Positions 4,669-16,148 of a stretch of 16,148 bases of DNA are shown here, in pieces (the first letter of the stretch is position 1; the number at the start of each line of letters is the position of its first letter). The stretch is taken from contig CALFXV010000063.1 in assembly GCA_937957775.1 (NCBI GenBank), positions 1-16,148 on the forward strand. Direction: 5' to 3'. The position numbers and the translations under genes were made by a program. The DNA comes from an uncultured Methylotenera sp. (GTDB taxonomy: Bacteria; Pseudomonadota; Gammaproteobacteria; Burkholderiales; Methylophilaceae). Under the pieces are notes generated by a model. The model was not told the origin of the DNA. It worked only from the letters and a program-made list of their open reading frames with translations, and did not search any database.

Positions 4669-5547
4669 TTAACTTAAGGCATAGTGGGCGACCAGCCCAG
4701 CGAACACGGCCAATCCAAACCAATTATTGTGTAAAAAAGCTTGGAAACAGCGCGCTTTCTCACGCTGCCGTATTAAAAAATAATGGCGCAATGCCACGCC
4801 ACTAGCCACCAGCAAACCCAAATAATACAAATAGCCTAAGTGCGCCATCAGCCCTGCACCAGCCAACAGCAGCAAACTCAGCGCGTAACAAATCATGACG
4901 GCCAAGACATCGAAGCGGCCAAACGTGATGGCCGATGAGCGTAGGCCAATTTTCAAATCGTCATCACGATCCACCATGGCATACTCGGTGTCGTAAGCAA
5001 TCGCCCAACAGACATTGGCCAGCAACATTACCCAAGCCACGTCAGGAATACTGTTGCTAGTAGCGGCAAAGGCCATGGGTATGCCCCAGGCGAAAGCGAT
5101 GCCTAAATACGCTTGCGGGAGGGCAAAAAAGCGTTTGGTCAAAGGGTAAGTCATGGCCAAAAACAAGGCAACCAAAGACAAAGCGATGGTGTAGCGATTT
5201 AATGCGCAAACCAAGGCAAACGCCACTAGGCTTAAAGCCGCCGCCAACAACGCGGCTTCTTTCTTGCTCACTTCTTCTTTAGCTAGGGGCCGGTTTTGCG
5301 TGCGTTCAACCAAGCCATCGTATTGGCTATCGGCCACGTCGTTCATCACGCAACCGGCACTGCGCATCAGCACCGTGCCAGTCACAAAGACTATGAGTAA
5401 TCGCCAATCTGGCTGACCTTGGCTAGCTATCCACAAAGCCCATAAAGTCGGCCACAACAACAGCAATATGCCTATCGGTTTATCCAAGCGCATTAGCCGT
5501 TCGTAGGCGTCCAGTTTTTTTACTAATGCATCGCTAATTAGCTTCAT
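4669..5547 (-). CDS. ubiA: UbiA, 4-hydroxybenzoate polyprenyltransferase
   Basis: Integral membrane prenyltransferase that attaches the polyprenyl tail to 4-hydroxybenzoate, the second committed step of ubiquinone synthesis. From the ATG at 5547 it has 292 residues, the normal size, with about nine hydrophobic segments. The two Asp-rich Mg-diphosphate motifs are intact: NDVADSQYD (N69, D70, D73, D77) and DTEYAMVDRDDD (D186, D193, D196, D197). The frame is open further upstream, but that extension lies inside ubiC and is not natural. The start overlaps the ubiC stop as ATGA, so the two are translationally coupled and the product of UbiC is handed to UbiA. It ends only 21 bases from the end of the convergent FimV-like gene. 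No clear terminator is visible between them. Confidence 0.97.
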   Translation of the reverse strand: MKLISDALVKKLDAYERLMRLDKPIGILLLLWPTLWALWIASQGQPDWRLLIVFVTGTVLMRSAGCVMNDVADSQYDGLVERTQNRPLAKEEVSKKEAALLAAALSLVAFALVCALNRYTIALSLVALFLAMTYPLTKRFFALPQAYLGIAFAWGIPMAFAATSNSIPDVAWVMLLANVCWAIAYDTEYAMVDRDDDLKIGLRSSAITFGRFDVLAVMICYALSLLLLAGAGLMAHLGYLYYLGLLVASGVALRHYFLIRQREKARCFQAFLHNNWFGLAVFAGLVAHYALS

Positions 5548-6077
5548 TTGGCCACCACCATTTCGGGTAAAAACACCTCGGTCACCATAATGTTCGCCTG
5601 ATGCAAATGAAACACTGAACGGCGCGCCCATAAGTAACAAGGCTTAGGGTCAATATTCGCCACCGCTTGCTGATATAAGGCATGCTGCGCATGCAGTTTT
5701 TGGAAACGTAAGGCCGTGCGTTTAACTTGTGGATTAGCAAACAAGGCCTCGCCCAAGGGCTGGCTGCCTAATTGACGCAAGCCTAACCAAGGCCCACGCA
5801 AACTGCTTAAAGGCAGCACGCTGTGGGCAAACACCACGGCTTGCCGGTTACCCAGTAACAACACATTGCGTATTAATGCCGCTTGGCGAAAAGTCAGGCC
5901 CAAGGCCGGCATTTCATCTAAATGGGCGCGGCCATGACTGACCGATAAAGGCTGCACGGCAAAATCAGCAAAGCGCGCTTTCAAACGCGTGGTCAATGAA
6001 CCGCGGTCGCTTAATGCCGGACGGTAGGGGCCACTTAATAGCGGTTTTTTAAGCCAACGGGCGCGCTTATTCTGCAT
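5544..6077 (-). CDS. ubiC: UbiC, chorismate pyruvate-lyase
   Basis: Soluble enzyme that splits chorismate into 4-hydroxybenzoate and pyruvate, opening ubiquinone synthesis. The 177 residues are close to the family length. Recognisable features are ALIRNVLLLG, where R70 matches the substrate-binding Arg of the E. coli enzyme; PLGEALF (L108-G109 region); and the C-terminal TEVFLPE, where E167 matches the catalytic Glu. The N-terminal WLKKPLLSGPYRPALSDRGSLTTRL stretch is also typical of the family. It is coupled to ubiA by a 4-base ATGA overlap. A 94-base gap separates it from recG upstream. No obvious ribosome site precedes the ATG, which is unusual for the first gene of a unit. Confidence 0.93.
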   Translation of the reverse strand: MQNKRARWLKKPLLSGPYRPALSDRGSLTTRLKARFADFAVQPLSVSHGRAHLDEMPALGLTFRQAALIRNVLLLGNRQAVVFAHSVLPLSSLRGPWLGLRQLGSQPLGEALFANPQVKRTALRFQKLHAQHALYQQAVANIDPKPCYLWARRSVFHLHQANIMVTEVFLPEMVVAK

Positions 6078-6112
6078 GATGGGGTTGGAAAGTTAGACGG
6101 TGCACGGTAAAA

Positions 6113-6121
6113 ATTATGACA
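6113..6121 (-). promoter_or_regulatory. Candidate extended -10 promoter for ubiC-ubiA
   Basis: In the recG-ubiC gap the minus strand reads TGTCATAAT, an extended -10 (TG-N-CATAAT), with no good -35 at 16-18 bases. The start point would be near 6106, leaving a leader of about 29 bases before the ubiC ATG. No terminator hairpin with a U-run follows recG in this gap, so read-through from recG is also possible. Confidence 0.3.
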
Positions 6122-6171
6122 CAGAATCGCCGCAATGCCGCGACACCAGCAAGCAAACAGTCTGCATGACA

Positions 6172-8211
6172 TTAGACTTTAACCAATTCATCGGCATGGC
6201 CTAACCAGCGATCAAGGTGCTGCTCCACCGCACTGGGGTAGTCGTTTAACAAGGCCTCGGCCTGCGACTTGGCGTATTCTAATAAATCGGCATCGCGATT
6301 CAAATCGGCTATTTTCAGCATGGGCACGCCGCTTTGGCGTAAGCCTAAAAACTCACCCGGGCCACGCAAATTCAAATCAGCCTGGGCGATGGCAAAGCCA
6401 TCGTTGCTCTCGTAGATGACTTTTAATCGGGCGCTGGCCATTTCTGATAGCTTGTTTTGATAAAGCAATATGCAGGTGCTTTTAGCCGCCCCTCGGCCGA
6501 CACGGCCACGCAGTTGATGCAGTTGACTCAAGCCCATGCGTTCGGCGTGCTCTATGACCATTAAATTCGCGTTGGGCACGTCCACGCCGACCTCCACCAC
6601 GGTGGTGGCCACCAGCAGCTGTATGCGACCGGCACTAAACTCGGTCATGACTGCCTGTTTTTCTGCCGATTTAAGTCGGCCGTGCACCAAGCCTATGGCC
6701 AGTTCCGGGAAAATACTTTGCATCAAGGCGAAGGTGTCGTTGGCGGTAACCAATTGCAAGGCTTCCGATTCTTCAATTAATGGGCAGACCCAATAGGCTT
6801 GGTGCCCTTGCGCGCAAGATTCCCGAACACGCTGCAAAATTTCATCGCGGCGCGCTTCGGATACCAATTTGGTGACGATGGGCGTGCGCCCAGGCGGCAA
6901 TTCGTCTATCACCGACACGTCCAAATCCGCGTAATAACTCATGGATAAAGTGCGCGGAATGGGCGTGGCGGTCATCATCAATTGATGCGGTTCCGGCTGG
7001 CCTTTTTGCCGCAAAGCCAAGCGTTGCTGCACGCCAAAACGGTGTTGCTCATCAATAATCGCCAAGCCTAATTGCTTAAATTGCACCGCCTCTTGAAATA
7101 AAGCATGGGTGCCCACCGCCAATTGCGCGCTACCATTTGCGATAGCCTGCATGGCCAGCTCACGGTCTTTTTTTGATTGGCTGCCGGTTAACCAGGCAGT
7201 TTGTATGCCGAGTGGCTTTAGCCAACCCAGCATTTTTTGATAATGTTGTTCCGCCAGAATTTCCGTGGGCGCCATCAGCGCCACTTGCCAACCGTTTTCT
7301 ATGGCTTGCAAGGCGGCCATACAGGCCACTATGGTTTTACCGCTGCCCACGTCGCCTTGTAAAAGGCGCTGCATAGGGTGGGCCTGCGTTAAGTCACGCT
7401 CAATTTCCAAGGCGACTTTTTGTTGGGCTGCCGTCAGGGCAAAAGGCAAACTTTTGAGTAAAGCCGAAACCCATTTTTTGGATGGCATAAACCTAGGCGC
7501 ATCGACACTGCGGCGGCGCGCATAATGTTTGCGCATGGACAACTGTTGCGCTAGCAATTCGTCCAAGGCTAAGCGCCGACTGTGCGGCGTGGTTTTATCC
7601 GACAAAGCCGCCACATCGGCATCGGCAGCCGGGTTATGCAAGGCCTGCAAACTGTCAGCAAAACTGGGTAAATTTAAGGCTTGATAAACTTTGGCTGGCA
7701 GCGTCTCAGGCCATGCCTGTTGCTTTAAGGCAAGGCCTATGGCTTTACGCAAACTGCCTTGGCTTAGGCCGGCGACGCTCGGGTAAACCGGCGTGAGGGT
7801 TTGTGCAACAACGCTGGTTTCGCCCACCGTCTTGCAGCTCGGGTGCACCATTTCGTAACCAAAGAAACCGCTGCGCACTTCCCCGTACACTCGCAGTTTT
7901 TTACCCACTTTTAAGGCGGCTATTTGGCTGGGGTAAAAATGTAAAAAACGCAAAGTGAGTTGACCGCTGGCGTCTTCCAATCTGGCCATCAAGGTTTTTC
8001 TTGGTTTGTAACTGACCTCGGCATGCACAATCTCGCCTTCCACTTGCACCGATTCCCCCACGCGCAAATCGCGCACCGCTGTTATGTGGGTTTCGTCTAT
8101 ATAGCGTAGCGGCAAATGCAACAACAAACCTTGCACAGACTGAATGCCGAGTTTGCTTAAGTTGCTAATAAGAGGCTTGCTGAAGGCGGAGATAGCGCTA
8201 AGCGGGGTCAT
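6172..8211 (-). CDS. recG: RecG, ATP-dependent DNA helicase
   Basis: Double-stranded DNA translocase that regresses stalled replication forks and processes branched recombination intermediates. The 679 residues match the usual length. The N-terminal wedge (OB-fold) domain covers about 45-150. Superfamily 2 motifs follow: Walker A GDVGSGKT (286-293), DEQHRFG (387-393), TATPIPRT (414-421), VVEVGVDVP (538-546) and QLRGRVGRG (566-574). The C-terminal RGPGEFLGLRQSG (616-628) is the TRG translocation motif specific to RecG and Mfd. It lies 35 bases after spoT, as in the enterobacterial spoT-trmH-recG order but with no trmH between. No clear ribosome site precedes the ATG. Confidence 0.98.
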   Translation of the reverse strand: MTPLSAISAFSKPLISNLSKLGIQSVQGLLLHLPLRYIDETHITAVRDLRVGESVQVEGEIVHAEVSYKPRKTLMARLEDASGQLTLRFLHFYPSQIAALKVGKKLRVYGEVRSGFFGYEMVHPSCKTVGETSVVAQTLTPVYPSVAGLSQGSLRKAIGLALKQQAWPETLPAKVYQALNLPSFADSLQALHNPAADADVAALSDKTTPHSRRLALDELLAQQLSMRKHYARRRSVDAPRFMPSKKWVSALLKSLPFALTAAQQKVALEIERDLTQAHPMQRLLQGDVGSGKTIVACMAALQAIENGWQVALMAPTEILAEQHYQKMLGWLKPLGIQTAWLTGSQSKKDRELAMQAIANGSAQLAVGTHALFQEAVQFKQLGLAIIDEQHRFGVQQRLALRQKGQPEPHQLMMTATPIPRTLSMSYYADLDVSVIDELPPGRTPIVTKLVSEARRDEILQRVRESCAQGHQAYWVCPLIEESEALQLVTANDTFALMQSIFPELAIGLVHGRLKSAEKQAVMTEFSAGRIQLLVATTVVEVGVDVPNANLMVIEHAERMGLSQLHQLRGRVGRGAAKSTCILLYQNKLSEMASARLKVIYESNDGFAIAQADLNLRGPGEFLGLRQSGVPMLKIADLNRDADLLEYAKSQAEALLNDYPSAVEQHLDRWLGHADELVKV

Positions 8212-8246
8212 AAAAAACGGCGTCTAAAACAAGTGGCCAAAGCCAA

Positions 8247-10526
8247 TTAGCTGACGGATTTACCATCTTGCGTCGCTGGGTTGCCCTTGCTTCGATTGAT
8301 GCGCACCACATCGGGAATTTTTCGTAAACCGCGCATGAGCTCAGCCAAATGAATCCGATTTTTTACTTGCACGGTAAAGTAAAGGTTGGCGTAACTGCTG
8401 CCATCCGGCTCTTCCACGCTGACGTTGTCTATGTTGGAGCCGGCGTCGGCTATGCCGCTGGCAATTTTAGCCAGCATACCCGGTTGGTTAGCCACGGTTA
8501 AATTCAGATTGGCTTTATACAAATGCTCGCTGTCCGGCTCCCACTCCACGTCCAGCCACTTTTCTGGATCCAAACGGAATTTACGTATGGCCGGGCAATC
8601 GTGGGTGTGCACCACCAAGCCCTTGTCCTTATTAATAAAGCCCAATATCGGGTCACCTGGTATGGGGCGGCAACACGGGGCAAACTGCACCGCCATGCCC
8701 TCTGATCCGCGTATGGTGATGGTGTCCAAAGGCTTGCTGGGTTTACGGAAAATTTTACCTAAGAACTTACCTATGCCACCTTCAGGGCTTTCTTCCAACA
8801 TCTCGCCCATGGCCAATAATTGATGCGCCACCATGACATTTTGCCGTTTGCCCAAGCCTATGTCGGTCAGTATTTCCGATTTCTTTTTCAGGCCGTAATC
8901 GCGTATCAGTTTTTGCCAATGCGCTTCGGTAATTTGATCCGGCTCTATGTGCATGGCGCGCAGCGCCTGGTTCAACATGCGTTCGCCAAGGTGCGCGGAC
9001 TCGGTGGAGTGTTGCGACTTCAGGTAATGCCGTATGTGCGCTCTGGCGCGACCGGTCACCACGTAATTAAGCCAAGCCGGATTGGGTTTGGCCAAGGAAC
9101 CGGTGATGATTTCCACGTGATCGCCGTTATGCAATTCCGTGCGCAGCGGCGCCAAATCTTGATTAATCCTCACTGCCACGCAACTGTTGCCTATGCCAGA
9201 GTGCACGGCGTAAGCAAAGTCGACTGCCGTCGCGCCTTTAGGCAAGGCTAAAATTTTACCTTTAGGGGTAAACACGTAAACTTCATCTGGGAACAGATCG
9301 ATCTTCAAATGCTCAAGGAAATCCAGCGAATCGGCACTGTCACTTTGAATTTCAAGCAAGCGTTGCAACCATTGGTGGGTCTTTTGCTGCAAGGCCGTCA
9401 ACTGCGCGTCATTGGATTTATACAACCAATGGGCGGCCACACCGGCGGCAGCGATATTGTGCATTTCGGCACTGCGTATTTGCACTTCTATGGGCGTACC
9501 AAACGGGCCAAATAAAGTGGTGTGCAAAGATTGGTAGCCGTTGGCCTTGGGGATAGCGATGTAGTCTTTGAATTTACTGGTAATGGGTTTGTACAAACCA
9601 TGCAGCGCGCCCAAAGCTGAGTAACAACTGGCCAAGTCTTTTACCACCACGCGAAAACCGTAAATGTCGTAAATTTGCGAAAAAGAGGTCGTTTTGCCAC
9701 TCATCTTCTTGTAAATGCTGTAAAGATGCTTTTCTCGGCCCGACACTTCAGCCTCGATTTTCATGCCAACAAGCTGGTGCTTAATTGATTCCAATATCTT
9801 GCTAACCACTTCTTTGCGGTTGCCGCGGGCCGCCATGACTGCGTTAGCGATAGCGTTGTAACGCATGGGGTGGAGGTATTTAAAGCTTAGGTCTTCCAGC
9901 TCTTGGTAAATCTCGTTTAGGCCCAAGCGATTGGCAATCGGCGCGTAGATGTCCAAGGTTTCTTTGGCGATGAGCTTTTGCTTTTCTGGGCGCATGCCTT
10001 CTAGGGTTTGCATGTTATGCAATCTATCGGCCAATTTCACTAAAATCACGCGCACGTCTTGCGACATGGCCAAAAGCATTTTGCGGAAGTTTTCCGCTTG
10101 CGCCACGCTGGCACTTTGAAATTCGATTTTGTCCAACTTGGTCACGCCATCAACCAATTCGGCCACTTGCTGACCAAACTTTTCTTTGATGTCGTCGGTG
10201 CTGATGTCGGTATCTTCCACCACATCGTGCAACAAGGCCGCCATGATGGTGGGCAAATCCATGTGCATATCGGCCAAAATACAGGCCACCGACACCGGGT
10301 GGCTGATGTAAGGCTCACCGGTTTTACGCACCACGCCCTGGTGGGCTTGGTCGGCATAACGGTATGCCTCCCAAACCTGGGTGATGTCTTCGGATTTAAG
10401 GTAGTGTTTTAAGCGTAAGCTTAGGGCTGAATCGTCGCGGTCTGCGGGTAACAGCAATTCGGCAGCGAGTGGATGGGCATGCGTACTAGACGATGCGTGT
10501 TTGTGTGCAGTAGCCGATTTAGGCAT
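8247..10526 (-). CDS. spoT: SpoT, bifunctional (p)ppGpp synthetase/hydrolase
   Basis: Makes and degrades the stringent-response alarmone in the cytoplasm. The 759 residues carry all RSH domains: an HD hydrolase domain (H76, H100-D101 in LLHDVVEDT, plus later LADRLHNM at 165-172), a synthetase domain (about 260-370, with DIYGFRVVVKD at 287-297 and NGYQSLHT at 329-336), a TGS domain (about 405-475), a conserved-cysteine region (CCR at 618-620, C644) and a C-terminal ACT domain (about 674-745). The intact HD residues and the basic KFKD at 318-321, in the place of the R-x-K-D that marks bifunctional enzymes and unlike the acidic E-x-D-D of RelA, indicate hydrolase plus Mg-dependent synthetase activity. 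It follows rpoZ by 27 bases and precedes recG by 35. The ATG has no Shine-Dalgarno; CCUCCU lies next to it instead. Confidence 0.97.
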   Translation of the reverse strand: MPKSATAHKHASSSTHAHPLAAELLLPADRDDSALSLRLKHYLKSEDITQVWEAYRYADQAHQGVVRKTGEPYISHPVSVACILADMHMDLPTIMAALLHDVVEDTDISTDDIKEKFGQQVAELVDGVTKLDKIEFQSASVAQAENFRKMLLAMSQDVRVILVKLADRLHNMQTLEGMRPEKQKLIAKETLDIYAPIANRLGLNEIYQELEDLSFKYLHPMRYNAIANAVMAARGNRKEVVSKILESIKHQLVGMKIEAEVSGREKHLYSIYKKMSGKTTSFSQIYDIYGFRVVVKDLASCYSALGALHGLYKPITSKFKDYIAIPKANGYQSLHTTLFGPFGTPIEVQIRSAEMHNIAAAGVAAHWLYKSNDAQLTALQQKTHQWLQRLLEIQSDSADSLDFLEHLKIDLFPDEVYVFTPKGKILALPKGATAVDFAYAVHSGIGNSCVAVRINQDLAPLRTELHNGDHVEIITGSLAKPNPAWLNYVVTGRARAHIRHYLKSQHSTESAHLGERMLNQALRAMHIEPDQITEAHWQKLIRDYGLKKKSEILTDIGLGKRQNVMVAHQLLAMGEMLEESPEGGIGKFLGKIFRKPSKPLDTITIRGSEGMAVQFAPCCRPIPGDPILGFINKDKGLVVHTHDCPAIRKFRLDPEKWLDVEWEPDSEHLYKANLNLTVANQPGMLAKIASGIADAGSNIDNVSVEEPDGSSYANLYFTVQVKNRIHLAELMRGLRKIPDVVRINRSKGNPATQDGKSVS

Positions 10527-10527
10527 G

Positions 10528-10542
10528 AGGAGGTCACCGCCT
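10528..10542 (-). promoter_or_regulatory. Small hairpin and anti-Shine-Dalgarno-like motif before spoT
   Basis: The spoT leader in the 27-base rpoZ-spoT gap reads AGGCGG-UGA-CCUCCU. It can fold into a stem of five pairs and one mismatch with a three-base loop, ending one base before the AUG. Its right arm is identical to the core of the 16S rRNA 3' end, so it cannot act as a ribosome site. A regulatory role is only inferred. Confidence 0.35.
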
Positions 10543-10553
10543 AGGCAGGGAAA

Positions 10554-10760
10554 TTAAACGCGCGTTAAAATTTCCACACCCACTTTACCGGCTGCAATTT
10601 CACGCAAGGCCAACACGGTTGGTTTGTCACGCAAACCTTGCACATTGATCAATGGCTCAGAACCATTGTGCAATTGGCGGGCACGGTAGGCCGCCACTAA
10701 CGTTAATTGAAAACGGTTAGGAATTTGATCTAAACAATCGTCTACAGTAATACGGGCCAT
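10554..10760 (-). CDS. rpoZ: RNA polymerase omega subunit
   Basis: Small subunit that clamps the beta-prime chain, helps assemble RNA polymerase and, in E. coli, forms part of a ppGpp binding site. The 68-residue product begins [29 protein letters not shown] and contains [13 protein letters not shown], both diagnostic of omega. The length is at the short end of the normal range. AGGAA lies about 9 bases before the ATG. It is placed between gmk (52-base gap) and spoT (27-base gap), the conserved arrangement that ties transcription, GMP supply and (p)ppGpp together. Confidence 0.97.
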
Positions 10761-10780
10761 GGTGTTGTTTCCTATTGAGC

Positions 10781-10798
10781 GCCCGGCTTATGCCAGGC
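10781..10798 (-). other. RNA hairpin in the gmk-rpoZ gap
   Basis: The minus-strand sequence GCCTGGC-ATAA-GCCGGGC forms a 7-pair stem (one G-U) with a tetraloop. It lies just downstream of the gmk stop and 7 bases upstream of the rpoZ ribosome site. No U-run follows, so it is not a standard terminator. It could protect or punctuate the message between the two genes. Confidence 0.5.
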
Positions 10799-10812
10799 TG
10801 ATATTTAAGATA

Positions 10813-11418
10813 TTAAGTGAGCGTTTTAATCAAACCAGCATGCCGCTGCATTTGAATTGAACCGACTAAGCGTTCTGCTCGAAATATGGCCGCTATGTCT
10901 TGCAAGGCCACATCGAAATTATCGTTAATTGTAACATAATCGAACTCGCCCACGTGCGCCATTTCCGAGCGGGCTGCCGCCACACGTTTGGCGATGACTT
11001 CGGCCGCATCTTGGCCACGGCCATTGAGTCGTTGTTCCAAGGTTTCTATCGATGGCGGCAAAATAAATATACTGATGGCTTGCGGGTACAAACGCCGCAC
11101 TTGTGCCGCGCCTTGCCAGTCGATTTCTAAAATCACATCGAAGCCCGCAGCCAGTTGTTGGTCCACTCCGGCTTGCGAAGTGCCATAGCGCGCCTCGTGC
11201 ACCAGCGCACTTTCTAAAAACTGCGCCTCACCTAGCATGCTGATGAAAGTGGCGTCGTCGACAAAATGGTAATCCACCCCGTCTATTTCGCTAGGCCTAG
11301 GCTTGCGCGTGGTGTGAGAAATGGACAGCTTTAATTGCGGGTCGTTGGCCAGCAAGGCTTTAATTAAACTGGTTTTACCTGCGCCAGAAGCCGCAGTGAT
11401 GATAAATAAGTTAGCCAT
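10813..11418 (-). CDS. gmk: Guanylate kinase
   Basis: Phosphorylates GMP to GDP with ATP, an essential step toward GTP and hence (p)ppGpp. From the ATG at 11418 the protein has 201 residues, normal for the family. The P-loop is ITAASGAGKTSLI near the N-terminus. The GMP-binding segment SHTTRKPRPSEIDGVDYHFV (about 34-53) and EIDWQGAAQVRRLYP (about 97-111) are intact. An ATG two codons upstream (11424) is possible, but the AAGA ribosome site lies 7 bases from 11418 and only 1 base from 11424. The usual betaproteobacterial upstream neighbour yicC is not present. Instead the Anbu gene ends 32 bases upstream, and I see no clear terminator between them. Confidence 0.97.
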   Translation of the reverse strand: MANLFIITAASGAGKTSLIKALLANDPQLKLSISHTTRKPRPSEIDGVDYHFVDDATFISMLGEAQFLESALVHEARYGTSQAGVDQQLAAGFDVILEIDWQGAAQVRRLYPQAISIFILPPSIETLEQRLNGRGQDAAEVIAKRVAAARSEMAHVGEFDYVTINDNFDVALQDIAAIFRAERLVGSIQMQRHAGLIKTLT

Positions 11419-11450
11419 GGTCATGTCTTTTTTGGGTTCGTTTAGCTAAT

Positions 11451-12185
11451 TTAGCACCAATCTGGATTAGGCAAGCCACTGAAAACGGCTTTCAAGCCGT
11501 CGCCCCAGCCTTGCCGTATCTGCAAATAATAGGGGTCGTTTTCGGTAATGCGTTGATAGCAATCGGCATGCAAGGTGTCGGATCGGTATAACAATAAATC
11601 AATCGGCGCTGCCACCGACACATTACTGCGTATGGTGGAATCAAAGGAAATCAACAAGCATTTAACGGCGTCCATCATCTCGGTATGGTATTTCACCACG
11701 CGGTCTATGATGGGCTTGCCGTACTTGGTTTCGCCTATTTGGAAATACGGGGTTTCGCTGCAAGTCTCGATAAAATTACCGGCAGCGTAGACATTAAACA
11801 AGCGGGGCTTTTCACCTTTGATCTGACCGCCTAGCAAGATGGTCGCATTAAAATCAATGTTGTGGTTTTTTAGAAATTCGGCATCGCGTTCAAACGCCGC
11901 GCGCAACTCGGCCCCCACTAAACCGGCCGCCTCAAATAAGCTCTTCACATTATGCAGGTGCTTGGCACCTTTTTTGTTGGCCTCTATGGCGGCGCGCAAA
12001 TGCCCGACCACGGCTTGGGTGATGGCTAAATTACCGGCCGTCATCAAGACAATAACGCGGTCACCCTTAACTTCAAACACGTGCATTTTGGGGGAAATAG
12101 CGACTTGATCTACCCCAGCATTGGTGCGCGTATCCGAGGCAAACACCAAACCTTGTTTTAACAATAAACCAACACAATAGGTCAT
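11451..12185 (-). CDS. Anbu, proteasome beta-subunit-like Ntn hydrolase (COG3484)
   Basis: Member of the Anbu (ancestral beta subunit) branch of the T1 proteasome family. Structures of relatives show open, helical assemblies, but peptidase substrates are not established. The 244-residue protein begins MTYCVGLLLKQGLVFASDTR. Removal of Met would expose the nucleophile Thr (T2). Counting from that Thr, D17 and K32 sit where the proteasome catalytic Asp17 and Lys33 are expected. Further family segments are FNATILLGGQ (112-121) and GETKYGKPI (151-159). There is no propeptide, as usual for Anbu. It is the last gene of the ATP-grasp/alpha-E/transglutaminase set, 57 bases after the DUF2721 gene and 32 bases before gmk. 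Proteolytic activity is inferred from conserved residues only. Confidence 0.95.
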   Translation of the reverse strand: MTYCVGLLLKQGLVFASDTRTNAGVDQVAISPKMHVFEVKGDRVIVLMTAGNLAITQAVVGHLRAAIEANKKGAKHLHNVKSLFEAAGLVGAELRAAFERDAEFLKNHNIDFNATILLGGQIKGEKPRLFNVYAAGNFIETCSETPYFQIGETKYGKPIIDRVVKYHTEMMDAVKCLLISFDSTIRSNVSVAAPIDLLLYRSDTLHADCYQRITENDPYYLQIRQGWGDGLKAVFSGLPNPDWC

Positions 12186-12242
12186 AACTAACTCTAAGAT
12201 AAAGGTGAATTAAGCGAGCTCAAATCATACCATTAGGCCGCC

Positions 12243-12695
12243 CTAGCGACCATGTAAATCTTGTCTGTGGCGGGTAATCACCTCTTGCGAGGCCAGGATG
12301 ATTTCCCTTAAAAAACACAATAAACCAAAAATCAGGGAGACCATGGCGGTAATAAAAGTCATCAAGACAAAATTCGACAAATGGATATTAATCGCCACAC
12401 CGACGAATATGGCGGCAATCGCCAAGGACACACACAAACCGGCAAAGATAAACAAACCCACCGACCAACGCATCCAAGATGTGCGCACCGCGATGATGTC
12501 CAACTCGTCTAGAAACAACTTGCGCTGATCGGCACTGAGGCCATTTAAATTTCTGGCTCTATCTATGGCGCGGCCTAAACGGTTAACCAACACGCCCAAA
12601 ATGGAGCCTATGCCGGTTAACAAAAACACCGGGGCTACCGCATCGCGAATAGCCTCCGATACGTCACGAATATCAGATGGAGAGTTAAATAACAT
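12243..12695 (-). CDS. DUF2721 family membrane protein
   Basis: Function unknown. The 150-residue protein has three predicted membrane helices (about 20-40, 77-102 and 108-129). A basic/polar segment after the first helix includes NRLGRAIDRARNL, which resembles the DUF2721 signature (a conserved R-x-x-x-I/L-D-R region), and a cytoplasmic region with LFLDELDIIAVR precedes the second helix. The C-terminus is polar and basic. It lies inside the operon between the transglutaminase gene (30-base gap) and Anbu (57-base gap), so it is probably co-expressed with them. It might anchor or link the system to the inner membrane, but nothing in the sequence proves that. The ATG has only a weak GAGA ribosome site. 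Confidence 0.8.
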   Translation of the reverse strand: MLFNSPSDIRDVSEAIRDAVAPVFLLTGIGSILGVLVNRLGRAIDRARNLNGLSADQRKLFLDELDIIAVRTSWMRWSVGLFIFAGLCVSLAIAAIFVGVAINIHLSNFVLMTFITAMVSLIFGLLCFLREIILASQEVITRHRQDLHGR

Positions 12696-12725
12696 AGGGT
12701 CTCAATTGCATGGCTTATAGGGAAA

Positions 12726-13601
12726 TTATTGTTGGGCTTGCTGATTTTGTCGCATTAACTCGGCATGCTTAAGCAATGCGGCCGTGTCTATGCGGCGCTG
12801 ATCGACAAGCGCCACGCCGGCTTGATTAACGATCACGCTGCTGGCCATGCCTTCTATGCCCCCGCCGGATCGCATGCCACTGACCGGGCTGGCGCTGCGG
12901 TAATCCAAACCGGTGGCCAAGCGCACGTGGGTTTCACCGGCACGGCAACCGTTGGACACATCGAAACTTTGCCAGCCGCTGTCGCTTAAATACACATCGG
13001 CCCAGGCATGCGTTTGCATCAAGCTGCCGTCCGCAGTGAATAAATAGCCACTGACGTAGCGCGCCGGTAAACCCATGCTACGGCAACAAGCAATAAAAAT
13101 ATGCGCGTGATCTTGGCATACGCCTTGGCCCAGCTCAAAGGCTTCCATCGCCGAGGTGTTGACTTGGGTGGCGCCACTTAAGTATTTCACCCTAACCAAA
13201 AGCGCATGCATCATGGCCGACAAGGCCGAACTTTGCTGGTGCGGCGCCGCTTTAAATTGCCCGGCAAAATCACGCATGGCCGCATTGCTCAGCGTTAAGG
13301 GCGTGTCACGCAAATAAATAGAAAGCGGCAAGCTCTGGTGTTGCGTCATTACCTCTAGGCCGGTTTCAATTTCCCCCTGCGCCACAATCAAAATTTCCTG
13401 ATGCGGCTTATCTATGACCAAGGTGTGCGTGCTATTACCATAGGCGTCTTCAGTGGGATGCAAGGCCCCCGCTACTTTGATGTCCCAGCGTTTGACGTGT
13501 TGACCAAAGCCATTTTGCGGGCTTAAACGCAGTTGCTGTATGGTGTAGTTAACCGATTCGCTGTAAACATATCGGGTGTGGTGCTCGATGTTGAGTAACA
13601 T
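12726..13601 (-). CDS. Transglutaminase-like cysteine peptidase (COG1305)
   Basis: Papain-fold protein expected to cut, or rearrange, amide bonds. The 291 residues comprise the bacterial transglutaminase N-terminal domain (about 1-80, with TRYVYSESV and LRLSPQ) and the catalytic domain (about 125-235). The catalytic triad is visible: C162 in GVCQDHAH, H198 in THAWADVY, and D214 in SFDVSNG. The last motif is more often FDPTNG, so the two residues after Asp differ, but the Asp itself is kept. There is no signal peptide, so it acts in the cytoplasm. The start is 2 bases after the alpha-E stop and has no clear ribosome site, which implies translational coupling. In this operon it is expected to act with the ATP-grasp and alpha-E proteins on peptides or isopeptides. 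The substrate is unknown. Confidence 0.93.
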   Translation of the reverse strand: MLLNIEHHTRYVYSESVNYTIQQLRLSPQNGFGQHVKRWDIKVAGALHPTEDAYGNSTHTLVIDKPHQEILIVAQGEIETGLEVMTQHQSLPLSIYLRDTPLTLSNAAMRDFAGQFKAAPHQQSSALSAMMHALLVRVKYLSGATQVNTSAMEAFELGQGVCQDHAHIFIACCRSMGLPARYVSGYLFTADGSLMQTHAWADVYLSDSGWQSFDVSNGCRAGETHVRLATGLDYRSASPVSGMRSGGGIEGMASSVIVNQAGVALVDQRRIDTAALLKHAELMRQNQQAQQ

Positions 13602-13603
13602 AA

Positions 13604-14566
13604 TTAACGGGTCGCAATGCTAAAAAAGGTGTTGTGCACTTCGGCACCCAGTCTGTTGTTGGCTTTAACAAAGTCATCAAGAAACTCATGCAGGCCATGC
13701 TGAAAAATACTGCGCATTTTGCCGAAGCGTAATTTGGCGTGCAATTCACCGGCTAAGCGTTTGCATTCGCTTTGGCGGGTGCCAGACAGCTGCTCTAAAA
13801 TCTGCGTGATTTCGTCAAAACAAGCGTGCAAGGAGCGGGGCATGTCGCGCCTTAAGACCAAGAGCTCGGCCACTCGCCACGGTTCTATCGAATCGCTGTA
13901 GATTTTTTGGTAGGCCTGAAACGCCGACACCGAACGCAACACCGCGCTCCATTCGTAATAATCCACGGCGCCGCCCACCTCTTCTTGTTCCGGCAACAGC
14001 AAATGGTATTTCACGTCCAGCAAGCGGGCGGTGTTATCGGCTCGCTCAATAAAGGTGCCTAAACGCACGAAACTGAAGGCATCGTCGCGTAACATGGTGC
14101 CAAAACACACGCCGCGGAATAAATGCGAGCGGGCTTTTACCCAATCACAAAACTCACGCAAACCGTTTTTAGCCAAGTCTTGGCCTATAAATTGGCTGAA
14201 TTCCAACCACAAGGCGTTGATGTTTTCCCAGGTTTCCGAGGTCATGGCCACCCGCACCGCATGGGCGTTTTCTCGGGCACTGCGCAACGCGTTGTAGATG
14301 CTAGAGGGGTTGTTTTCATCCATGGCTAAATAATGGATCACCCCGGCGGCGGTGTACTCATCGCCGTCTTTTTTGAAATAATCGCGCTCGTAGGCATCGA
14401 CATTGCCGGAGATGTCTAAAGCCGTCACCCAAAGGGCAGCCTCGCTTTCAGCGGCGTTGGGCACCAAGGACATGTTGTAGGTCACGTCCAAAACGCGCGC
14501 CATGTTTTCTGCCCGCTCGATGTATCGCGCCATCCAATACAAATGATCTGCTGTCCGACTTAACAT
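13604..14566 (-). CDS. Alpha-E domain protein (DUF403, COG2307)
   Basis: All-helical protein of unknown biochemical role that travels with circularly permuted ATP-grasp and transglutaminase genes. The 320 residues carry the family N-terminus LSRTADHLYWMARYIERAEN (IERAE at 16-20) and RSARENAHAVR (95-105). A second copy of the first motif appears as VRLGTFIERADNTARLLDV (167-185, IERAD at 173-177), showing an internal duplication typical of this fold. The ATG overlaps the end of the ATP-grasp gene by 7 bases, and a strong AGGAGG ribosome site lies inside that gene 5 bases upstream. The pair are therefore coupled and probably made in similar amounts. In other genomes the two domains are sometimes fused, which supports a physical complex. 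Confidence 0.95.
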   Translation of the reverse strand: MLSRTADHLYWMARYIERAENMARVLDVTYNMSLVPNAAESEAALWVTALDISGNVDAYERDYFKKDGDEYTAAGVIHYLAMDENNPSSIYNALRSARENAHAVRVAMTSETWENINALWLEFSQFIGQDLAKNGLREFCDWVKARSHLFRGVCFGTMLRDDAFSFVRLGTFIERADNTARLLDVKYHLLLPEQEEVGGAVDYYEWSAVLRSVSAFQAYQKIYSDSIEPWRVAELLVLRRDMPRSLHACFDEITQILEQLSGTRQSECKRLAGELHAKLRFGKMRSIFQHGLHEFLDDFVKANNRLGAEVHNTFFSIATR

Positions 14567-16047
14567 GCTGCCTCCTCGTCTATGCTGCTGGCTTCCAACT
14601 TATCGTCCGCGCTATCGCTGCTTGCGTCTTGCAACACCCAGGTGTCTTTGGTGCCGCCGCCTTGCGAGGAATTCACCACCAGCGAGCCCTCTTTCATGGC
14701 CACCCGACACAAGGCACCGGGCACCAAGCTGACGGTTTTCCCAGACAACACAAACGGCCTTAAATCCACGTGGCGCGGCGCAATGCCGGCCTCAACCAAA
14801 GTTGGGCAGGTAGACAAAGCCAAGGTCGGCTGCGCTATGTAATTAGCCGGATTGGCCTCTATGCGTAGCTTGAAGTCGGCCAACTCTTTTTTGCTGGCGG
14901 CCGGGCCAACCAACATGCCGTAGCCGCCCGAGCCCTGCACTTCTTTCACCACCAGTTCCGGCAAATGCGCCAAGGTGTAGGCTAGGTCGTCGGGTTTGCT
15001 TAATTCGTAAGTGGGCACGTTTTCTAGTAGCGCCTCCTCACCCAAATAAAATTTGATCATGGCCGGCACATGGATGTAGGTGGCCTTATCGTCGGCCACG
15101 CCGGTGCCCACCGCATTGGCCAAGGTCACTCCGCCGTTACGGTAAACCGACAACAATCCGGGCACGCCCAACATGGAGTCGGCGTTAAATACGAGTGGGT
15201 CGATGTAGTCGTCGTCTATGCGTCGATAAATGACGTCGACTTTTTGTGGGCCTTGGGTGGTGCGCATGTAAACCGCGTTATTGCGCACGAATAAATCAGG
15301 CCCCTCGACTAATTCCACACCCATTTGCTGCGCCAAAAAGGCGTGCTCAAAATACGCGCTGTTATAAGCACCTGGCGTTAATACCACCACGGTCGGCTCG
15401 TGCACACCGGCTTGCGGCACGGCACGTAAATTTTTTAACAAGACTTGCGGGTAATGATCGACCGGCGCCACCGAATAGCGCCTGAATAATTCCGGGAATA
15501 AACGCATCATCATTTTGCGGTCCTCCAGCATGTAAGACACGCCGGACGGGGTGCGCAAATTGTCTTCCAACACATAGAATTGCGACTCGCTGGTGCGCAC
15601 CAAATCGATACCGGCGATGTGCGCATAAATTTGATTGGGCACGTCCACGCCAAACATCTCTGGTCGGTATTGGGCATTGGCTAGGATGCTTGCTGGCACG
15701 ATGCCAGCTTGGATGATTTCTTGACCGTGGTAGATGTCGTGCAAAAACATATTGAGTGCGCGCACGCGCTGTATGGCACCGGCAGACAATTTGGCCCATT
15801 CCTTGGCCGCTAAAATGCGCGGTAACACATCAAATGGAATCAGGCGCTCGGCACCGTCGTCGTCACCGTATACGTTAAAGGTGATGCCCACTCGGCGAAA
15901 CAGCAATTCGGCTTCTTGGCGCTTGCTGTTGAGTTGATGATGCGGCACGCCCTTAAGCCAAGCGTCATAAGCGGCGTAAATGTCGCGGACACTGCTGTCC
16001 GCGTGGATATGCATTTCATCAAAAAATGCGGCTGCGGTGTTTTTCAT
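14560..16047 (-). CDS. Circularly permuted ATP-grasp type 2 protein (COG2308)
   Basis: ATP-grasp enzymes join a carboxylate to an amine through an acyl-phosphate. This permuted branch is predicted to form peptide or amide bonds, but no substrate is known. The 495-residue length is typical. Conserved segments are LEDNLRTPSGVSYMLEDR (160-177), DVIYRRIDDDYIDPL (271-285), NAVGTGVADDKATY (311-324), VVKEVQGSGGYGMLVGP (366-382), RHVDLRPFV (425-433) and NSSQGGGTKDTWVL (459-472). These supply the expected acidic and basic ATP-Mg residues. The final 20 residues are Ser/Asp/Glu-rich and look disordered. It is the first gene of the operon, with the sigma-54/IHF region directly upstream. The ATG has a GAAAG about 7 bases ahead. 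Confidence 0.96.
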   Translation of the reverse strand: MKNTAAAFFDEMHIHADSSVRDIYAAYDAWLKGVPHHQLNSKRQEAELLFRRVGITFNVYGDDDGAERLIPFDVLPRILAAKEWAKLSAGAIQRVRALNMFLHDIYHGQEIIQAGIVPASILANAQYRPEMFGVDVPNQIYAHIAGIDLVRTSESQFYVLEDNLRTPSGVSYMLEDRKMMMRLFPELFRRYSVAPVDHYPQVLLKNLRAVPQAGVHEPTVVVLTPGAYNSAYFEHAFLAQQMGVELVEGPDLFVRNNAVYMRTTQGPQKVDVIYRRIDDDYIDPLVFNADSMLGVPGLLSVYRNGGVTLANAVGTGVADDKATYIHVPAMIKFYLGEEALLENVPTYELSKPDDLAYTLAHLPELVVKEVQGSGGYGMLVGPAASKKELADFKLRIEANPANYIAQPTLALSTCPTLVEAGIAPRHVDLRPFVLSGKTVSLVPGALCRVAMKEGSLVVNSSQGGGTKDTWVLQDASSDSADDKLEASSIDEEAAC

Positions 16048-16080
16048 GGCCTTGCTTTCTTTTATAGGTATAAAAGACTA

Positions 16081-16097
16081 AGCAAAACCCATACCAA
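16081..16097 (-). promoter_or_regulatory. Sigma-54 (RpoN) -24/-12 promoter for the Anbu-type operon
   Basis: On the minus strand the sequence reads TTGGTATGGGTTTTGCT. It aligns without gaps to the sigma-54 consensus YTGGCACGRNNNTTGCW with only two differences (C to T at both consensus C positions of the -24 block). The invariant GG and GC are exactly 10 bases apart. The predicted start point is about 16070, about 23 bases before the ATG. No sigma-70 match of similar quality with correct spacing is present. Confidence 0.6.
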
Positions 16098-16112
16098 ATT
16101 TTTGTTGTTTTA

Positions 16113-16125
16113 AATCAATTGCTTA
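16113..16125 (+). promoter_or_regulatory. IHF binding site upstream of the sigma-54 promoter
   Basis: The plus strand reads AATCAATTGCTTA, an exact match to WATCAANNNNTTR. Its centre is about 50 bases upstream of the predicted sigma-54 start point, where IHF usually bends DNA to bring a distal activator to the polymerase. The surroundings are very AT-rich and include a 12-base palindrome (16123-16134), which favours bending but also raises the chance of a random match. Any activator site would lie beyond the window edge. Confidence 0.5.
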
Positions 16126-16148
16126 AAATTTTAAATTTATTCATAAGG

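Follow-up and report, generated by a model that had tools for sequence, protein, structure and literature searches.

Classical NtrC-activated sigma-54 promoters are those of the glnA and glnK-amtB type, and NtrC sites are typically arranged as GCAC and GTGC half-sites at a fixed spacing (GCAC-N7-GTGC). The promoter considered here is similar in that its relatives combine such dyads, ~90-145 bases upstream, with a -24/-12 element, an arrangement also found before ammonium-transporter genes of the ~400-aa type in the same genomes; it differs in serving an enzyme set rather than nitrogen uptake or assimilation.

In gene content, two described systems come close. The first, PP_2688-PP_2685 of P. 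putida, looks like the same operon in the accessible parts of its published descriptions: genes for an ATP-grasp protein (PP_2688), a transglutaminase (PP_2686), and a proteasome beta-like protein (PP_2685, anbu) follow in the same order, with a nitrogen-responsive promoter before the ATP-grasp gene and constitutive activity before anbu. PP_2687, called hypothetical in the P. putida papers, we infer to be alpha-E. When 200-300 bases from before PP_2688 and from before PP_2685 were cloned, the former gave a 3.7-fold induction on nitrogen depletion and the latter was constitutive, like the sigma-70 tac promoter, while PP_2685 mRNA was up by log2 4.44 on nitrate (PMC8050072). A second study of nitrogen-limited wild type reports PP_2686-2688 up 12.6-, 11.0-, and 14.7-fold and PP_2685 unchanged (1.12-fold), gives NtrB/NtrC as putative regulator of PP_2686-2688 (citing Hervas 2009), and has the same three genes up 17-37-fold in a relA/spoT mutant (PMC7801951); another gives a value of 11.1 for PP2685 when nitrogen is limiting (PMC3325844). 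P. putida departs from a strict sigma-54 case in one respect: in an rpoN mutant, PP_2686-2688 were still up 14.2-, 16.0-, and 19.6-fold, with urtA-D likewise undiminished (PMC7801951, Table 2). As reported, this speaks against strict sigma-54 dependence in that species; since urtA-D behave alike, the reason could be either that rpoN mutant or another promoter.

The second, I35_5080-83 of B. cenocepacia H111, is a betaproteobacterial ATP-grasp/alpha-E/transglutaminase cluster (DUF404/407, DUF403, and two transglutaminase-like proteins) that depends strongly on ntrC (log2 changes of -6.0 to -9.4 when the gene is mutated) and is among the common sigma-54/NtrC targets (PMC5491218). It differs in that its description, in the part accessible, mentions no Anbu, and in ending with a large transglutaminase-like protein. 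Anbu itself is presumably COG3484. A COG3484 proteasome-type protease is listed in a predicted sigma-54 regulon (PMC12316311), and Anbu is mentioned in connection with nitrogen limitation in the accessible text of two further papers (PMC5666114, PMC6376114). Given the P. putida and B. cenocepacia reports, the nitrogen signal is already known, and on this point they overtake a sequence-only reading of the present DNA, which had seen no clear physiological signal.

Other sources, as far as their text is accessible, are silent: no mention of these genes was found in the main text of a P. phymatum nitrogen paper, none of transglutaminase or proteasome in a Methylophilaceae transcriptome paper, and in a Caulobacter NtrC preprint just another transglutaminase homologue. 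Within the part of the open-access literature covered, no report linking Anbu with NtrC was found, and the papers listed for NtrC, sigma-54, or Anbu in the Methylophilaceae and for Anbu with gmk or spoT showed nothing on the details added here. What is added here is the likely activator in this family, an IHF site limited to one clade, the separation of Anbu into a unit that it shares with gmk-rpoZ-spoT-recG, and, at the inferred start, a repeat whose arms covary. Relative to the P. putida operon, compared through its published descriptions and not its promoter sequence, the DUF2721 gene, gmk-rpoZ-spoT behind anbu, the position of the IHF site, and the inverted repeat are described for this clade.

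The window is the whole 16,148-nt stretch analyzed, from an uncultured Methylotenera sp. Its genes for ATP-grasp, alpha-E, transglutaminase, and Anbu are contiguous on the minus strand, with a DUF2721 gene before anbu. The first ATG of the ATP-grasp gene is at 16047, leaving 16148-16048 (minus) as its upstream region.

Table 1. Promoter elements and genes in the window, with the evidence or placement for each.
Feature	Coordinates	Strand	Basis or remark
IHF consensus AATCAATTGCTTA (exact WATCAANNNNTTR)	16113-16125	plus-strand reading	-55 to -43 from inferred start
Sigma-54 -24/-12 promoter element TTGGTATGGGTTTTGCT, GG-N10-GC	16097-16081	minus	direct reading and consensus scoring
Inverted repeat TCTTTTAT-acct-ATAAAAGA	16077-16058	minus	between -12 box and ribosome-binding region
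Inferred transcription start	~16070	minus	12 bases past the -12 GC, the usual sigma-54 distance
ATP-grasp, circularly permuted (CP_ATPgrasp_2); first gene downstream of the sigma-54 promoter	14560-16047	minus	Pfam PF14403
Alpha-E protein	13604-14566	minus	Pfam PF04168
Transglutaminase-like protein	12726-13601	minus	Pfam PF01841 and PF08379
DUF2721 protein, presence variable among relatives	12243-12695	minus	Pfam PF11026
Extended -10 box TGGTATGAT; would serve anbu-gmk-rpoZ-spoT-recG as a vegetative promoter	12232-12224	minus	conservation
Anbu (proteasome-like)	11451-12185	minus	solved Anbu structures, best E 7.6e-86; Pfam PF00227
gmk (guanylate kinase), 26 bases past anbu	10813-11424	minus	TIGR03263
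rpoZ (RNA polymerase omega)	10554-10760	minus	TIGR00690
spoT, RelA/SpoT-family (p)ppGpp enzyme	8247-10526	minus	TIGR00691 and Pfam
recG	6172-8211	minus	RecG domains

From comparison of these elements with those of relatives, it is highly probable that a nitrogen-starvation promoter using NtrC, IHF, and sigma-54 lies before the ATP-grasp cluster, and that Anbu has a second promoter. When nitrogen is scarce, NtrB would phosphorylate NtrC, which would bind one or two GCAC-N7-GTGC-type dyads with their centres at about -94 and -136; IHF would bind its site and bend the DNA, and NtrC would activate sigma-54 polymerase waiting at the -24/-12 element. The transcript would run from ~16070 through the ATP-grasp, alpha-E, and transglutaminase genes (and DUF2721). 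Anbu could be reached by read-through from this promoter, and would in addition have its own vegetative box, shared with gmk-rpoZ-spoT-recG.

Sigma-54 promoters have the consensus YTGGCACG-N4-TTGCW, which is the scoring standard used here. The window's TTGGTATGGGTTTTGCT, with GG at 16095-16094, GC at 16083-16082, and 10 bases between, matches it at 11 of 13 informative positions; the mismatches are C to T at motif positions 5 and 7. The core has been printed as GGcacg-N4-ttGC (PMC5491218). A single site of this quality is unlikely by chance, as shuffled 200-base upstream regions yield 0.9 with 11/13 or better per 125 regions, but it is conservation that decides. For this the best GG-N10-GC was taken from the 200 bases upstream of 125 loci whose ATP-grasp proteins have at least 50% identity, leaving out five distant paralogues (L026-L030), two duplicates (L033, L036), a fragment (L025), and a locus with 12 bases upstream (L122). 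Scores of at least 10/13 were found at 96 of these loci (4.7 in shuffles, 6 on the reverse strand, 9 in a coding control), and scores of at least 11/13 at 73 (0.9, 0, and 1, respectively), counts that are non-independent because the loci are related. All 44 rows with at least 74% identity, the window being one, reach 10/13. In a further set of 40 family upstream regions, from genomes partly overlapping the 125-locus set, 39 have the element (the sole miss is G049), and 34 carry it together with a dyad within one mismatch. The -24/-12 element with exact spacing and two mismatches, proposed from the window's letters alone, thus holds up at its place and across relatives.

A few of the counted matches, such as those at L040 and L104, are over 90 bases away from the start codon and could be due to chance. 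The 29 loci failing the strict pattern comprise, by eye, 15 with GG-N10-GA or -GT, 11 with nothing clear, and three weak ones; the 15 variants are mainly Oxalobacteraceae, with a -24 box and TTGA or TTGT at -12. Among the Oxalobacteraceae-type loci, TGGCAC..TTGA/TTGT is a recurrent sigma-54 box variant by eye (L039, L042, L043, L053, L055, L056, L059, L078, and others). Absence of the promoter from the Oxalobacteraceae was considered and set aside, since most carry this variant, as judged by eye with a relaxed pattern that had no shuffle control. Five of the 11 loci with nothing clear are of Polynucleobacter type (L080, L083, L085, L089, L093); they have a perfect GCAC-N7-GTGC dyad starting ~80 bases before the start codon and no clear -24/-12. 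At another group (L011-L014, L035, L037, L038, L131, L133) the -12 GC is just 12-15 bases 5' of the start codon, so that a sigma-54 mRNA would be nearly leaderless. The sigma factor gene, rpoN, was found in 177 of 187 family genomes at a strict cut-off, many of them drafts and the closest relative (G157) among those with it; one genome (G002) has the ATP-grasp gene and no rpoN at that cut-off.

Around the inferred start lies the inverted repeat. The energy of its arm duplex beats that of shuffles (p<=0.05) at 21 of 28 clade loci, with a mean z of -2.78. In the other groups this level is reached at two of five loci of 74-80% identity, three of 44 elsewhere, one of seven further family loci, and none of five at class level. 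Each locus's own arms pair more strongly (mean -9.27 kcal/mol) than arms swapped between relatives (-6.46; 25 loci), none of 20000 permutations reaches the own-arm mean, and the result holds with 19 distinct 5' arms. Judged from these pairings, the arms covary among relatives, largely within the window's clade. RNAalifold predicted no pairs for the hairpin, a result that counts neither way because at least one input (L112) was wrongly cut.

If the repeat has a function, it could be at the DNA or the RNA level. As DNA it might be the operator of a repressor; transcription from the inferred start would begin past its 5' arm, leaving this arm out of the sigma-54 mRNA, and the core AGTCTTT/AAAGACT is recurrent. 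A sequence-specific operator should however keep its sequence, whereas here the arms of relatives diverge and complementarity stays. Ungapped repeat scoring, which is weaker than the duplex energies, points the same way: 13 of 29 loci are significant with Watson-Crick pairs, and admitting G-U pairs lifts this to 17. We regard an operator as possible but doubtful.

As RNA, the repeat could be a fold-back hairpin that silences mRNA reading through from upstream. Pairing of the ribosome-binding region is predicted to be 0.75 in a read-through RNA vs. 0.45 in one beginning at the inferred start, and to be higher in the former at 22 of 27 loci. The neighbouring long frame runs in the same direction as the ATP-grasp gene at 23 of 26 loci; at one (L006) the repeat is present though the neighbour is on the other strand. 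In many clade members the upstream neighbour is yicC, which has the same orientation and ends 180-540 bases short of the ATP-grasp gene; at L120 the distance is 1193. In genomes that lack the cassette at this site, yicC was seen no more than 1500 bases upstream of gmk at 22 of 25 gmk loci. One such genome (G151, 86% complete; locus L317) aligns with window positions 11451 to 3 at 94.9% over 11,468 bases, the alignment ending exactly at the anbu stop codon; where the window has the cassette, this genome has yicC, and its gmk is preceded by a promoter-like TGTCATAAT.

A more elaborate model can be built on this, in which the cassette, located between yicC and gmk in this clade, is a self-insulated nitrogen-starvation module tied to (p)ppGpp metabolism. 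The hairpin, extending over the -12 box and ribosome-binding region, would block translation of yicC read-through mRNA; because sigma-54 mRNA lacks the 5' arm, only mRNA started by NtrC and sigma-54 would be translated. At the other end, because the end of the cassette replaces the relative's promoter-like sequence before gmk, read-through from the NtrC promoter would raise anbu-gmk-rpoZ-spoT-recG above its vegetative level. If true, this would link nitrogen starvation to SpoT. Hairpin insulation and read-through into spoT together make a rather unlikely combination.

The proteasome-like Anbu gene appears, from conservation of the sequence before it, to have a second, everyday (vegetative-type) promoter. 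An extended -10 box (TGNTA...T, at least 5/6 to TATAAT, within 70 bases before anbu) was found at all 18 gmk-adjacent loci including the window (0.78 in shuffles), at four of 16 other family loci (0.37 in shuffles), and at none of 41 further loci of the scan, four of which (L031, L033, L034, L037) are probably family; the count omits L067, which has anbu on the other strand. Boxes of the TGGTATGAT type are 36-48 bases before anbu. Anbu and gmk are closely spaced (2-75 bases in 17 of 17 relatives with both genes). A sigma-54 promoter of anbu's own was also considered and rejected, the best scores in the 250 bases before anbu in family loci being no higher than 9/13.

It could alternatively be argued that ATP-grasp to Anbu is one NtrC operon without a separate Anbu promoter, which is the literal wording of the sequence-only reading. 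In the window the genes are contiguous and on the same strand; P. putida anbu was up in nitrogen limitation in two data sets (log2 4.44 and 11.1-fold, as accessible); a terminator scan of 5500-16148 gave 18 hits vs. 17.3 in shuffles, no excess, with a weak one inside DUF2721 (12654-12633); and a sigma-70 promoter scan of 5500-16148 showed no excess over shuffles, the anbu box being absent from its list. That scan requires a -35 hexamer and is for this reason silent on the box. Against a single operon, the box is present at every gmk-adjacent locus, and it is kept where opposite-strand frames lie between anbu and transglutaminase (L032, L223, L233, L238, L243); frames of this kind, longer than 160 aa, split anbu from the transglutaminase part in five of 17 gmk-adjacent relatives. 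The TGGTATGAT box moreover stands directly before gmk at L289 and L297, from two genomes in which no ATP-grasp match was found (G165, G021), and there is no yicC within 1500 bases. The published constitutive activity upstream of PP_2685, in the part of that report accessible, also weighs against it and is consistent with the box seen here. A single operon is thus quite unlikely. With a conserved vegetative-type box before anbu, the sigma-54 promoter would be at most one of two Anbu inputs: as the promoter of the ATP-grasp, alpha-E, and transglutaminase genes the original proposal stands, while anbu has its own box and groups with gmk-rpoZ-spoT-recG.

The intergenic regions around anbu hold some further sequences. 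At L227 and L231-L233 an AT-rich, hairpin-like sequence was seen by eye between anbu and gmk. A same-strand frame of 400-419 aa lies between transglutaminase and anbu at L226 (8030-9232), L224, L229, L231, L232, and L233; a Pfam search with the L226 copy gave no match.

The activator was approached through dyads of the form GCAC-Nn-GTGC (n = 1-15) at the 122 loci for which 350 or more bases of upstream sequence were available. Exact dyads with n = 7 are present at 50 of these (shuffle mean 1.8, maximum 4), against five or fewer for any other spacing; with one mismatch allowed the figure is 96, vs. 32.5 in shuffles. Most dyads in the window's clade begin between -100 and -103, and many of these loci show another, weaker dyad around -143; in L111, the closest relative at 92% identity, a perfect dyad is found at -100. 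By these positions the nearer dyad of the window's own genome is expected at ~16157-16171, just beyond the window's end. NtrC-type repeats, suggested in the sequence-only reading as something to look for upstream, are thus found in relatives at a fixed distance and with the half-sites and spacing of NtrC.

A composite pattern (dyad, 45-75 bases, -24/-12) was searched in 12 whole genomes. It gave 13 matches, 10 of them at the ATP-grasp/Anbu operon, and the reversed pattern gave none; two genomes lack it (G013, which has the operon, and G136). The other three matches precede genes for an NMT1-like substrate-binding protein and a glutathione synthetase, and a frame that has no Pfam hit. Ammonium-transporter genes served as the positive control: 30 of the 33 matches from 13 genomes were scanned, 8 of the 11 of ~400-aa type having a locus. 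The composite precedes six of these eight, with double dyads at -94/-95 and -124/-125. Since the same dyads precede these transporter genes, the activator of the ATP-grasp operon promoter in this family is, from sequence likeness, very probably NtrC. The ntrC gene was found in 154 of 187 family genomes, in 109 of 119 near-complete ones, and in the closest relative (G157); at least nine of 102 family genomes with the ATP-grasp gene, one of them 99% complete (G168), show no ntrC at a strict cut-off, many being drafts.

The promoter could be a real sigma-54 promoter with an enhancer-binding protein other than NtrC, the signal then not being nitrogen. First-look ntrC candidates number 4 to 108 per listed genome, so that there are many other response regulators and activators, and the composite is at just two of 22 canonical amt loci, at one of them weakly. 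The single dyad spacing (N7) argues the other way, however, as do the double dyad shared with the ~400-aa transporter genes and the P. putida and B. cenocepacia papers, whose accessible parts name nitrogen and NtrC. We consider another activator very unlikely.

The IHF consensus, proposed at ~50 bases upstream of the start, is at that distance if the start is taken as the transcription start. Among 31 loci with at least 80% identity (one qualifying locus with less than 40 bases before the motif was left out), the site is exact at 15 (0.4 expected) and within one mismatch at 30 (7.4 expected), and for 28 of them the best match, on the same strand, falls between -55 and -57. It is exact at two of 12 loci of 74-80% identity and at two of 52 more distant ones; because exact sites are this rare outside the clade, help from IHF would be a feature of the clade and not of the system, and the position is conserved in the window's clade but not beyond. 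IHF alpha is encoded in all 13 genomes tested. Both the -24/-12 element and the IHF site being conserved in the clade, and arranged as in enhancer-dependent promoters, the suggestion that the two together exceed chance is borne out. Taken alone, a consensus as short as that of IHF would be weak in such AT-rich DNA, but with the shuffles, the reverse strand, the coding control, and the fixed positions all against chance, the probability that the -24/-12 and IHF matches are mere coincidence is close to nil.

The Anbu system is widespread. With NtrC-type dyads and -24/-12 elements across the family, and -24/-12 elements in much of the order, these comparisons point to nitrogen scarcity as a common signal in Betaproteobacteria, in line with P. 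putida. If so, the substrate is narrowed to something made or recovered at nitrogen shortage. A separate Anbu promoter would mean that production of the peptidase can be uncoupled from that of the ligase/transglutaminase enzymes; it could explain conflicting anbu expression data, and it bears on models in which Anbu simply reverses the enzymes' product.

Two observations concern the surroundings of the ATP-grasp gene. In four genomes (G150, G154, G014, G011) an ammonium-transporter gene lies ~4-8 kb from it. At L026-L030, a distant second ATP-grasp paralogue (frames of ~860-890 aa, 35-37% identity) is found ~4.5-14 kb away on the same contig.
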